Shown: piece by piece, positions 1-38,798 of the stretch
How the letters are laid out: every line of letters starts with the position of its first letter
How positions within the stretch are numbered: position 1 is the first letter of the stretch
DNA from: Cycloclasticus sp. symbiont of Bathymodiolus heckerae
GTDB taxonomy: Bacteria; Pseudomonadota; Gammaproteobacteria; Methylococcales; Cycloclasticaceae
Assembly: GCA_002101235.1 (NCBI GenBank)
Contig: LWTL01000105.1
Span: 1-38,798, forward strand
Length of the DNA stretch: 38,798 bases
Reading direction: 5' to 3'
Made by a program: the position numbers and the translations under genes
The notes under the pieces: generated by a model
Told to the model about the DNA's origin: nothing
The model's input: only the letters and a program-made list of their open reading frames with translations
Databases searched by the model: none

Positions 1-46
1 ATAATATCACCTCTAATTAGGTGGCCAACTTAACTATGCCACTACA
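1..46 (-). mobile_element. End of an IS3-like insertion sequence running off the left edge
   Basis: The first 46 bases are the exact reverse complement of 38673-38718, where an IS3-like element begins and leads into an OrfA reading frame. Read outward (leftward) the end starts TGTAGTGGCATAG, with the 5'-TG typical of IS3-family tips. This is therefore the orfA-proximal end of a second copy, transcribed leftward out of the window. It is inserted inside the acyltransferase gene that starts at 833. The family assignment comes from the right-hand copy. Confidence 0.8.
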
Positions 47-833
47 GAATTAACGTAATGAATCCAGGATGATTCGAATTCAACTCCATAAATACAATTG
101 AATAGGCTATAAAGCAAAAGCCAAGGGCTGGCATGCATTTGTTTAACAATGCATCATTATTTTTTTGTGGGTGAAAATATAAAATACTGGCCAGTAACCC
201 GCCTGCTAAAAGCTCCCAAAATCTACTGGGTAGCATATAAAATGAAAACGAAGGATTTAATGGAGAGAACCAGTCAGCAAATAAAAGACTTAAAAGAAGG
301 CCCAAAGTGAGGAGAGCAACAATGTGAGTTTTGTGCCAACGGTAAATAGCAATCAACATGAATGGAAAAACAATATAATACTGCTCTTCCACAGCTAAAG
401 ACCAAGTATGTAGGAATGGTTTTAGTAACCCTGCTTCCGCCCCATATTCCTCCAATGAAGAGTTCCAATAAATATTGGAACTAAACAATAACGAGGTAAC
501 CTGAGATTTTGAAAAGTCTACAAGCTGATTTGGTAACAAGTTCCACCAAGCAAATGGCAACGTAAACAGCATTACTATTAATAAAGCAGGCAATAACCTT
601 CTTGCTCTACGTTCGTAAAACTTTTTGATTGAAAACTTACCTGTTTGACTCAGTTCATTCGTTATCAGAGACGTTATTAAAAACCCTGATATGACGAAAA
701 AAATATCCACACCAAAAAAACCACCTTTAAATAGTTGGCCAGAAAAGAGCTCAATATTAGCGTGATAGATAATGACAGATAGTACGGCAATGGTTCTTAA
801 ACCATCTATTTCAGGCCTGTATTGAGGTTTCAT
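47..833 (-). pseudogene. Acyltransferase 3 (OafA/YrhL type), cut off by an IS
   Basis: Membrane O-acyltransferase, the kind that modifies O-antigen or other surface sugars. About 262 native residues remain. The N-terminus has the family signature RPEIDGLRTIAVLSV followed by the conserved YHA, then GFFGVDIFFVISGFLIT, RRARRLLPAL and HTWSLAVEEQYY. Several hydrophobic membrane segments follow. Intact members with a C-terminal SGNH domain run to roughly 600-680 residues, so more than half is missing. The reading frame enters the IS end at base 46 and stops a few bases later. The start is the ATG at 833, next to the conserved N-terminus, but no good ribosome binding site precedes it. The rest of the gene may lie beyond the IS or be lost. 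As it stands it is probably non-functional. Confidence 0.85.
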
Positions 834-1360
834 AATGAGACTTTTTCGTGAGCTGTCAGCTGTTTCATGAGTGACAATTCGTTATAATTTTTTGATTTTA
901 ACATGCAGGTGTAATGTTTCGGTTAAGCAATAAACCAAGCACTCGAAAACAGTAAAGCATATTTTAAAATTACTTTTGGGTACTCTGCTAATAAGAAAGG
1001 CAAATATTGGACTGAGTCTTATTTAGAGTTTCATTTTTTTCAAGAATTGTTTTTTCGAGGCGCAAGCTTAATTGCTGTGGGGTGTAGGTGCTTCAAGGCT
1101 ATATTATTTAGTAAAGTTTGAGCAATTTATGGCAGACCTGAGAGGTTTAAAATTGAAGCGGTTAAGAGACTTACTGAATGTAGTCTCTCTGTAATTATTT
1201 GAATTCTGGAGTCGCTATGTCACAACTTCAGTTGTAGATAGGGAGCTAATACAAAGTAATTGTCATAACGATTTTTTGGTACTAAAATTGGTACTAAATA
1301 CATTGTGAGGACTTCTAAGTCCTTGATTTGGCATATGGCGTATTTAGGTTGAAAGCCTTC
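834..1360. other. Non-coding stretch; possible end of an integrated island
   Basis: I see no supportable gene in these 527 bases. The sequence is AT-rich and contains a 7-bp hairpin (1165-1171 with 1182-1188) and a pair of 11-bp direct repeats (1276-1298). It ends abruptly where similarity to RNase P RNA begins. None of the conserved 5' RNase P elements, such as the GAGGAAAGTCC motif, can be found here. This fits foreign or rearranged DNA joined to an rnpB 3' end. Confidence 0.5.
1276..1298. repeat. Two 11-bp direct repeats TTGGTACTAAA
   Basis: TTGGTACTAAA occurs at 1276-1286 and again at 1288-1298, a 12-bp period. It lies about 65 bases upstream of the rnpB 3' fragment. Short direct repeats beside an RNA-gene attachment site can be arm-type sites for a tyrosine recombinase. 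That reading is inference, and no integrase gene is present in the window. Confidence 0.6.
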
Positions 1361-1444
1361 TGGGTAGGTCGCTCGAGGTGCACGGTGACGTGCATCCCAG
1401 ATGAATGACTGTCCACGACAGAACCCGGCTTATCGGCCAACTCC
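1361..1444 (+). pseudogene. rnpB: 3'-terminal fragment of RNase P RNA (rnpB)
   Basis: This matches the last part of bacterial type A RNase P RNA. It starts with GGGTAGGTCGCTCGAG, then a hairpin with a GTGA tetraloop (stem 1378-1384 with 1389-1395), equivalent to P18. Next come the near-invariant AGATGAATGACTGTCC, CGACAGAACCCGGCTTAT and the 3' strand of P1 (GGCCAACTCC). Only about 83 of the usual 350-400 nt are here. The 5' strand of P1 and the catalytic P4 region are absent upstream. In many Gammaproteobacteria rnpB lies upstream of mraZ, so the position is right but the gene is incomplete. It is either a relic or the duplicated 3' end left by an element integrated into rnpB, with an intact copy elsewhere. 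Confidence 0.85.
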
Positions 1445-1451
1445 TTCTTAT

Positions 1452-3494
1452 TTAAGAGCTTCTTTTGCCAACAATGTGTAAATGGGGAGAAGCTTTATTT
1501 TTGGTAAATAAAGCACTAAGTTCGGATATAGGCATAGGTTTTGAGATTTCGTAGCCTTGCGCAAAATCCACCTTTAGGCCTTTTAAGATGCTTAAAATGT
1601 TGGCATTTTCTACATACTCTGCAACAGTTTGAATGTTCATTTTGTGGCTAACGTCAACAATGGCCTTTATCATTGCGACATCAATATCGTTGTGCTCAAT
1701 TGATCTAACAAAATTGCCGTCAATTTTTACGATGTCGATAGGTAGGTTTTTGAGATACTCAAACGAAGCAAGGCCACTTCCAAAGTCATCTAGAGCTATT
1801 TTGAAACCTTGTTTTTTTAAGTGTTCAAAGAATGCTATCGTTTCACCAAAATTCCGTAAAGTAGTGGTTTCTGTGATTTCGAAGCAGATGTTTTTTGCGA
1901 GTTCGTAATGTGAATATTGCGTGTAAAAATTATTGATAAATTCTTTAGAGTTTAAGGATGAGCCGGATAGGTTAATAGATAAGCATAAGTCTTTATTGTT
2001 TTGCGCCTTTAACCAAGCAAATGCTGAACTTATGACAAAGTTATCAATTCTTGGCATCGAGCCGTAACGTTCAGCTGCAGGTATAAAGGCATCCGGTGAA
2101 ACGATAGTGCCATCTTCGCTTTTCATGCGAATTAAAATTTCATAGTAGGTTGGGCTTGAAATGTTTGATTGGATGGGGGTAATAGCTTGTGCAAACAGTT
2201 GGAAGCGACCTAATTCAAGTGATTCGGTAATGACGGAGATGATATTCATATCCACTTCGCGCTGGAGAACCTGTGTGTCACTGGGCTTGTATGTATGAAC
2301 GCAATTGCGCCCAGACTCTTTTGCGTTATAGCAAGCTATATCAGCCATGGATAGGATGTTGTCGTTAATATTTGACTTATCCATCATGGCAATGCCGATG
2401 CTGCAGCCAATATGGAAATTAGCGGCTTTCCACTTAAATTGATATCCGTCTAGGCTGCTCCGAATAGTTTCGCTAATGGATATAGCGTTATCTATATGGC
2501 AGTTTGGGAGTAAAACACCAAACTCATCGCCGCCAAGGCGAGCTAACGTGTCTGTTTCCCGTATATTGCGTTTTAGTAACGTACTGATTTCTTGGATAAG
2601 AATGTCACCAGCTTCATGACCGGCGGTGTCGTTAACTAGTTTGAATTGGTCTAAATCTATATAGAGTAAGCCGTGCTGAGAGCCATTTTTCTTAGTTAAT
2701 TGCTTAAGCTCAAGTAACATTTCTTCGAAATATCGTCTATTCCATAATGTTGTTAAAGGGTCGTGGGTAGCATGGAAAGCCATTTTTCTTGACGCTTTTT
2801 TTTCTTTCTCGAGACTTGTGCGCAACAATTTTTCCTCTTGTCTGGAGGCGCGCGTTATCAGAATAAAAATAGTGGCGAGGCTGATTAAGAAAAATGCGGT
2901 GCCGATAATGGCAATATTCTGAATAGAGGTTTGCAAGTTACTGTTGAGAATCGCTAGCGTCTGATCCATGTCGTCACTTTGATGCTCAATAATTCCATCC
3001 ATGGAGTTAATGATGACGGCCTGTGCAGGGATGCCTTTCATAAATAAAAGATCTCGGGCGCTACTTCTATTGCCATCCATTAATCGTATGGCAACTTCTC
3101 TTTGCCGCAGCCCGTTGTCAGAGGTTAACTTGAAGAGTGCTTGAAGTTTTGTTTGTTCTTGTGGTGAAGAGGGTAGGCCTTCTAATGCAAGCCGAGCAGT
3201 GATAAATTGTCTTGCAAAACTGCCAAGCTGTTGATTCATATCATCTAAAGCGAAAGCGTCCTTTTCATCTAACATGGCGATGAGGACCAACGAACGCTCC
3301 CTTGCGGCGTTATACATACTTATCAATAAAGATCGCTTTTCTTGTTGAATGCGGACTTTTGTAGAAAGCAAATTGTGCGTTTCAACAACGGTTGAGTAAG
3401 TTTGGAATAACGTTATTGCTGACGTAATAAATACGATCAATAAAGAAATGAGCAACCAACGGTTAAAGTTTTTTGTGATAGAGAGCAATGTCAC
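1452..3494 (-). CDS. Membrane-bound GGDEF-EAL cyclic-di-GMP enzyme
   Basis: 680-residue protein that could both make and degrade cyclic-di-GMP. Order: N-terminal membrane segment (about 12-33), a helical periplasmic region of the four-helix sensor kind (about 35-190), a second membrane segment (about 195-215), GGDEF domain, EAL domain. The diguanylate cyclase motif GGDEF is intact at 321-325. An inhibitory site RETD lies five residues before it. In the EAL domain the signature reads EIL (452-454). The other phosphodiesterase residues are visible (NLSGSSL, FEITET, DDFGSG, KIDGNF, AEYVE, QGY), so both activities look possible. The start is GTG at 3494 with AGGA four bases upstream. It reads away from mraZ and stops 8 bp from the rnpB fragment. 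Confidence 0.9.
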   Translation of the reverse strand: MTLLSITKNFNRWLLISLLIVFITSAITLFQTYSTVVETHNLLSTKVRIQQEKRSLLISMYNAARERSLVLIAMLDEKDAFALDDMNQQLGSFARQFITARLALEGLPSSPQEQTKLQALFKLTSDNGLRQREVAIRLMDGNRSSARDLLFMKGIPAQAVIINSMDGIIEHQSDDMDQTLAILNSNLQTSIQNIAIIGTAFFLISLATIFILITRASRQEEKLLRTSLEKEKKASRKMAFHATHDPLTTLWNRRYFEEMLLELKQLTKKNGSQHGLLYIDLDQFKLVNDTAGHEAGDILIQEISTLLKRNIRETDTLARLGGDEFGVLLPNCHIDNAISISETIRSSLDGYQFKWKAANFHIGCSIGIAMMDKSNINDNILSMADIACYNAKESGRNCVHTYKPSDTQVLQREVDMNIISVITESLELGRFQLFAQAITPIQSNISSPTYYEILIRMKSEDGTIVSPDAFIPAAERYGSMPRIDNFVISSAFAWLKAQNNKDLCLSINLSGSSLNSKEFINNFYTQYSHYELAKNICFEITETTTLRNFGETIAFFEHLKKQGFKIALDDFGSGLASFEYLKNLPIDIVKIDGNFVRSIEHNDIDVAMIKAIVDVSHKMNIQTVAEYVENANILSILKGLKVDFAQGYEISKPMPISELSALFTKNKASPHLHIVGKRSS

Positions 3495-3969: not shown

Positions 3970-4431
3970 ATGGGTTTGTTTAGAGGAGTGACTAATGTGA
4001 CGTTGGATGCGAAGGGGCGATTGTCTATCCCTACGCGTTACCGTGCGCAACTGAAAGCTTCTTGTGATGGGCAAATGGTGATGACAGTTGATCGTGAACA
4101 TAGCCTTTTATTGTATCCACTACCGGTTTGGGAAGATATAGAACGCAAGTTGATTAAACTGCCTACTTTGAACAAACAAGCGCGTCGTCTACAGCGTTTA
4201 TTGATCGGTCATGCAACCGAATGCGAGCTTGATGCACAGGGCAGAGTATTGGTCTCGCCACCGCTACGTGAGTTTGCGGAGCTGGACAAAAAAGTAGTGA
4301 TGATTGGGCAAGGCAATAAGTTTGAAATTTGGAATGATCAAACCTGGGCGACGAAACGCGATATCTGGTTTGAAGAGGAGAATGCAGAAGACGGTGAGCT
4401 TTCACCTGAACTGGGATCGTTGTCTCTTTAA
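3970..4431 (+). CDS. mraZ: MraZ transcriptional regulator
   Basis: 153-residue DNA-binding protein that controls the division and cell wall cluster from its own promoter. Two AbrB-like MraZ repeats are visible. The first holds LDAKGRLSIPTRYR and the second holds ELDAQGRVLVSPPLR, each with the conserved D-x-x-G-R core. Length is the family norm (about 150). The start is uncertain. ATG at 3970 directly abuts AAGGGG with no spacer, whereas TTG at 3976 has the same Shine-Dalgarno 5-6 bases upstream and would give MFRG-like N-terminal spacing as in E. coli. The stop codon overlaps the rsmH start by one base (TAATG). Confidence 0.95.
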   Translation: MGLFRGVTNVTLDAKGRLSIPTRYRAQLKASCDGQMVMTVDREHSLLLYPLPVWEDIERKLIKLPTLNKQARRLQRLLIGHATECELDAQGRVLVSPPLREFAELDKKVVMIGQGNKFEIWNDQTWATKRDIWFEEENAEDGELSPELGSLSL

Positions 4432-5366: not shown

Positions 5367-5644
5367 TGGCGAGCCAGAGCGTTACAAGTATCACTCTATT
5401 GTTTTTGATGTTGGTTATCGCGTCAGCATTGAGCATTGTGTATGTGAAATACGATGCGCGTTTGAAATTCAACCAACTGCAAAAAGAGCTTCGTGAGCAA
5501 GATAGGTTGGGTGTTGAGTGGAGTCGTTTGCAGCTGGAGCAAAACACGTGGTCATCAAATAACAAAATAGAACATGTAGCGCGCACAACATTGAAGTTAC
5601 AAGTGCCTACGCCAGAACAAATTATTTATATAAAGGTTAAATGA
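5366..5644 (+). CDS. ftsL: Cell division protein FtsL
   Basis: 92-residue bitopic protein of the FtsQLB complex, which activates septal peptidoglycan synthesis. There is a short cytoplasmic start, one membrane segment (about 7-27), then a periplasmic coiled-coil-like stretch rich in Q, L and E (about 30-65). The C-terminal part ends IEHVARTTLKLQVPTPEQI, typical of the family. It is somewhat shorter than E. coli FtsL (121). The assignment rests on this layout and on its position between rsmH and ftsI. Start and stop overlap both neighbours. Confidence 0.93.
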   Translation: MASQSVTSITLLFLMLVIASALSIVYVKYDARLKFNQLQKELREQDRLGVEWSRLQLEQNTWSSNNKIEHVARTTLKLQVPTPEQIIYIKVK

Positions 5645-38672: not shown

Positions 38673-38798
38673 TGTAGTGGCATAGTTAAGTTGGCCACCT
38701 AATTAGAGGTGATATTATTCATCTCAAGATAAAAAGGTGAGCGCATGATGAGAAGAAGCAGACCAACATTTACCCCTGAATTTAGGCTTGAAGCAGCA
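38673..38798 (+). mobile_element. IS3-like insertion sequence, left end only
   Basis: The element begins TGTAGTGGCATAGTTAAG and leads into an OrfA reading frame at 38745. Its first 46 bp are identical, in inverted orientation, to the left edge of the window. Only 126 bp are inside the window, so the other end, the length and the target duplication cannot be seen. Confidence 0.8.
38745..38798 (+). CDS. IS3-family transposase OrfA, N-terminal fragment
   Basis: Eighteen codons at the right edge read MMRRSRPTFTPEFRLEAA. The pattern T-PEF-R-EA is the usual start of the helix-turn-helix domain of IS3-family OrfA proteins. AAGGTGA lies about 4 bases upstream of the first ATG. The gene continues outside the window. 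Confidence 0.75.
   Translation, partial: MMRRSRPTFTPEFRLEAA

Follow-up and report, generated by a model that had tools for sequence, protein, structure and literature searches.

The rnpB fragment near the start of the window is a real integration scar in the gene for RNase P RNA, left by a tyrosine-integrase island which is now broken. The window is a stretch of 38,798 nucleotides and comprises all of contig C105 of the genome of a Cycloclasticus symbiont of Bathymodiolus heckerae. Judged from the sequence comparisons below, RNase P RNA, an essential ribozyme, is probably chimeric in this host. The relevant features of the window are:

1 to 46, no strand: left end of an IS3-type insertion sequence, which breaks the assembly and truncates an acyltransferase gene (GGTGGCCAACTTAACTATGCCACTACA, 18 occurrences genome-wide)
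42 to 833, minus strand: N-terminal part of an Acyl_transf_3 protein (PF01757, E = 4.9e-26), the frame ending inside the IS end
1278 to 1298, plus strand: paired repeat GGTACTAAAATTGGTACTAAA, a probable arm-type integrase site, nearly repeated where the integrase begins on contig C123
1357 to 1380, plus strand: probable crossover region (att core) 5' of P18, identical in both rnpB copies and ending before 1381
1357 to 1444, plus strand: probably the displaced native rnpB 3' end, from P18 to the P1 3' strand (81/88 identity, RF00010, genus consensus at seven sites)
1452 to 3494, minus strand: GGDEF-EAL protein (Pfam), native flank beyond the island, 61% identical to the G012 ortholog located between rnpB and mraZ
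3970 to 4431, plus strand: mraZ, the native neighbour of rnpB in relatives, 85-96% identical in these

Window positions 1357-1444 matched the 3' end of the intact rnpB of the same genome with 81/88 identities (92%, E = 5e-32). In a whole-genome covariance search RNaseP_bact_a (RF00010) scored 58.2 bits at this locus (E = 2.6e-17), which falls under the gathering score of 100 of this model; an Rfam scan of the window reported nothing over the Rfam threshold. Nominally the covariance alignment covered model positions 1-367 over 1256-1448, most of the model being skipped. Its 5' part (1256-1356) paired poorly and was unlike the rnpB of any relative. Therefore, only the rnpB 3' end is present here. 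Covariance alignment and direct comparison thus confirmed the initial annotation, which had noticed that the remainder of the gene is absent from the locus. The elements it had named, i.e. P18 with a GTGA loop, the universal stretches ATGAATGACTGTCC and AACCCGGCTTAT and the P1 3' strand, were all identified in the fragment. The 3' end at 1444 was retained; the left limit had to be moved from 1361 by 4 nt to 1357. The fragment lies 1356 bp from the contig start and its 3' end faces the GGDEF-EAL gene and mraZ.

The initial annotation had also predicted an intact gene elsewhere. The covariance search recovered, next to the fragment, exactly one intact rnpB (C123:727-1087, minus strand, 319 bits). 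Between it and the start of C123, toward which its 3' end points, lie 726 bp; rsmI adjoins on the 5' side, as in relatives. In the latter, rsmI, rnpB and mraZ are grouped together, and rnpB shortly precedes mraZ as had been anticipated. The empty site is present in five same-genus relatives, with distances between rnpB and mraZ of 705 (G002), 451 (G005), 422 (G009), 345 (G015) and 758 bp (G016). GGDEF/EAL genes lie between rnpB and mraZ in G007, G010 and G012, G010 being split over two contigs. G004, G008, G014 and G017 (loci L035, L037, L038 and L043) were uninformative, with rnpB and mraZ far apart or on separate contigs; in three of these four a TetR/RND-efflux or RND gene set directly follows rnpB. 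Because relatives have rnpB close to mraZ, we conclude that extra DNA entered between C123 and C105. One end of the island has the complete target gene, intact rnpB, and the other has the 88-nt 3' fragment in direct orientation, facing mraZ like the rnpB of the relatives.

A recombinase gene was expected in between, and the reading frame nearest to the 3' end of rnpB, which opens 66 bp past it, proved to be the start of an integrase (DUF6538, 8.7e-11, Pfam). Near C123:402 the gene is frameshifted, and the following frame matches DUF3258 (9.4e-10). At C123:127 the integrase is cut by an IS3-type element. Thus, what remains of the integrase gene beside the regenerated rnpB is a broken N-half (DUF6538/DUF3258). 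Integrases of the DUF6538 type consist of a PF20172 N-domain followed by PF00589; here the N-domain alone was seen, and the catalytic half is lost or unassembled. It was not found in the genome, contigs C76, C78, C100, C114 and C118 holding unrelated integrases or none. The degenerate end of an integrase, interrupted by a stop, lies on C100 (G000:C100:2530-2751, L075) beside a tRNA-like stretch and is possibly the trace of another, unrelated island. With its integrase frameshifted and cut by an IS, the island element is probably unable to move itself now, and judging from these reading frames excision or integration activity is unlikely.

Homologous N-domains adjoin tRNA-Ser genes in other genomes of the order. 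These DUF6538 integrases (G143, G158 and G156; L066, L065 and L069) share a related N-domain and start just past the 3' end of the RNA gene, likewise with paired repeats of the CTACAAAA/GTACTAAA type between gene and integrase. They differ from the integrase at rnpB in their target and are only about 30-40% identical to it. The G143 protein (L066), beside tRNA-Ser, is complete and carries both the DUF6538 N-domain and a Phage_integrase domain. In the symbiont, repeat pairs of the GGTACTAAA type are present at both island ends and resemble one beside a related integrase at tRNA-Ser. A gap of 58 bp separates GGTACTAAAATTGGTACTAAA from the fragment that follows it; GGTGCTTAAATTGGTACTAAA, situated where the integrase begins on C123, has the same orientation relative to rnpB (BLAST 20/22). 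In G143, GCTACAAAAACTTGCTACAAAA is located between tRNA-Ser and the integrase; in G011, GGTACAAAAAATGGTACAAAA precedes an rnpB fragment. The expectation for such paired repeats was 0.0 per shuffled window. They presumably are arm sites of the integrase.

The middle of the island between C123 and C105 is unassembled since each of the two contigs terminates in a copy of one IS, judged to belong to the IS3 family from the transposase tail and the ends. IS ends are present at the start of C123 (C123:1-127) and at the start (1-46) and end (38673-38798) of C105. Genome-wide, the left end occurs 18 times and the right end 17 times, two of the latter being short matches, and nearly always at contig ends. 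That the IS caps many contigs suggests a recent IS expansion. The triplets flanking the IS on C123 and C105 do not match, and clear target-duplication pairs were not found; therefore, the two contigs are not linked by one simple insertion of the IS. The gap may hold several copies of the IS, or the IS may have mediated a deletion there. The proposal of an island integrated in rnpB with a duplicated 3' fragment at its far side was supported by both ends, which are on separate contigs; that one island joins C123 and C105 we infer. The acyltransferase, which the IS cuts, is probable cargo of the island. The end of C114 was inspected by eye as a candidate for its missing part; it encodes a different acyltransferase and is not clearly the missing piece. 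C108, in which the IS left end resides in a gene like the first of a gene cluster in G011, leads into ordinary chromosome.

Which of the two 3' ends is native? Fragment and intact rnpB differ at seven sites (1381, 1382, 1391, 1392 and 1437-1439), at which the fragment reads CATGCCA and the intact gene TTAATTG. CATGCCA is found in 11 of 13 other rnpB genes of the genus and the remaining two have TATGCCA and CTAGCCA; TTAATTG is found in none. Because it has the genus consensus at all seven sites, the fragment 3' of about position 1380 probably is the displaced native end; by the same comparison, the 3' end of the working rnpB probably came from the element. Pairing fits this assignment. The P1 5' strand, GGAGTTGGC, pairs fully with GCCAACTCC of the fragment (-18.0 kcal/mol); with the present 3' strand it reaches -12.3 kcal/mol using G-U pairs. 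The four changes in P18 are compensatory and hybrids of both P18 versions are weak, so P18 probably was swapped as a unit. We infer a foreign origin of the present rnpB 3' end and the exact position of the crossover; drift after integration could have made part of the differences. A donor rnpB with the present P18 was not found, this P18 variant being unique among 311 genomes of the order. The CGGTTGACTCC end is native in two distant Gammaproteobacteria MAGs, which have matching 5' strands. No clear attP carrying the 3' end of an rnpB was recovered in searches of phage, plasmid and IMG/VR sequences. Two Acinetobacter phage records show an rnpB-like match. A 'plasmid' of Enterobacter, on which rnpB lies close to prophage genes, is apparently a mis-circularised piece of chromosome, its first phage gene being more than 1 kb away from rnpB.

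We propose the following course of events. An element with a DUF6538-type tyrosine integrase, whose attP carried its own rnpB 3' end, would have integrated into the 3' part of rnpB. Recombination within the stretch matching 1357-1380 would have generated a complete chimeric rnpB beside the integrase, with a native 5' part and element-borne P18 and P1 3' strand. The native 3' end would have been displaced to the far side, where it forms the fragment of the window, with the native GGDEF-EAL gene and mraZ beyond it. Subsequently, the integrase presumably suffered its frameshift, and IS3-type copies would have entered the integrase and the acyltransferase cargo, breaking the assembly. The account as a whole, an integrase island in rnpB with a chimeric working gene, a displaced native end and later decay, we regard as very probable.

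Two alternatives accept the same island and divide the 3' ends differently. In one the working gene kept its native 3' end, which has drifted since integration; the end that the element brought was identical. P18 and P1 do vary among relatives, and the changes preserve the helices; however, it is the intact copy that carries all seven changes, whereas the fragment, though free to drift, has none. This we consider unlikely. In the other the crossover occurred 3' of P18, at about 1397-1436. Then the P18 of the fragment would be derived from the element, that of the intact gene would be native but private to this genome, and foreign sequence would be confined to the last bases of the working gene. 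The block 1393-1436 is indeed also identical in both copies, the fragment in G011 begins only at the P18 loop, and the P18 of G015 is partly like that of the intact copy. Yet two distinct odd states are then required, a native P18 private to this genome and an element whose P18 equals the genus consensus; the fragment also fits this consensus both 5' and 3' of that crossover. A crossover 3' of P18 thus appears quite improbable.

Explanations without an island fare worse. An IS-mediated rearrangement might have cut the native rnpB, a second rnpB being acquired or duplicated, and the genome is full of one IS able to rearrange DNA. Against this, the intact gene stands beside rsmI as in relatives and has a genus-like 5' part, the integrase abuts its 3' end, and no IS touches the left edge of the fragment. 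We view this as very improbable. With its 123 contigs the genome assembly is a draft, which raises the question of an assembly or binning artefact. However, the two copies disagree at seven sites, at each of which the fragment sides with the genus consensus, and the DNA beyond the fragment holds genes typical of the genus; genome completeness is 100 with a contamination of 0.17. An artefact is extremely improbable.

The arrangement of a regenerated target gene, a displaced 3' fragment and an adjacent integrase has been described for tRNA and tmRNA genes (PMC4383910). The mechanism here is the same as in tRNA-gene islands; rnpB is the unusual target. As in tRNA and tmRNA islands, the target is regenerated at one end, the displaced 3' fragment lies at the other and a tyrosine integrase is next to the regenerated gene. 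In contrast to those, 65-88 nt of the gene are exchanged, the interior is unassembled and the integrase is broken. Islander examines only tRNA and tmRNA genes, which places rnpB outside its scope, and the TIGER/Islander resource classes sites as tRNA/tmRNA, coding or intergenic (PMC12424338). Islands in rnpB could therefore go unnoticed as intergenic. No report of rnpB as a site of integration turned up in a literature search, which covered few subscription papers and is not proof of novelty. The case suggests that a mobile element can exchange the 3' end of an essential ribozyme, with the native end left nearby as a record. This would permit a direct test of how much foreign sequence is tolerated by RNase P RNA.

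The pattern recurs within the genus. In G011, a second rnpB 3' fragment (62/66 identical) with the same orientation follows about 4 kb past an intact rnpB and is preceded by a GGTACAAAA pair, similar to the repeat pair of the symbiont. Different from the latter, the G011 fragment is about 65 nt long, mutated and begins at the P18 loop; no integrase is left, and the cargo includes DoxX, carbonic anhydrase and PEMT. G010 has several cargo genes in common with G011 and a more decayed rnpB fragment at the corresponding place. The G011 island spans about 3.7-7.8 kb of L033 in rnpB orientation, its G010 counterpart being at L040 and L115. This region is an older rnpB island, integrase-less and decayed in G010. 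That a DUF6538-type integrase lineage used rnpB more than once in the genus, and that the RNase P RNA on which the host depends is chimeric, with its 3' end, P18 and one P1 strand included, supplied by an element, is a combined reading toward which we lean slightly.

Pattern surveys of 311 genomes of the order and 369 of the class, which miss strongly decayed fragments, disclosed no other real case outside the genus. An 18-base rnpB pattern was doubled in two further genomes of the order outside the genus, both false: the second match in G116 is a chance match in a response-regulator gene, that in G234 a contig overlap. A longer pattern, matching 144 class genomes, was doubled in none except the source genome. 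In E. coli the rnpB 3' end was found at 5,383 places in 5,375 genomes, eight more than there are genomes; a few strains may carry a second copy or fragment of this end.
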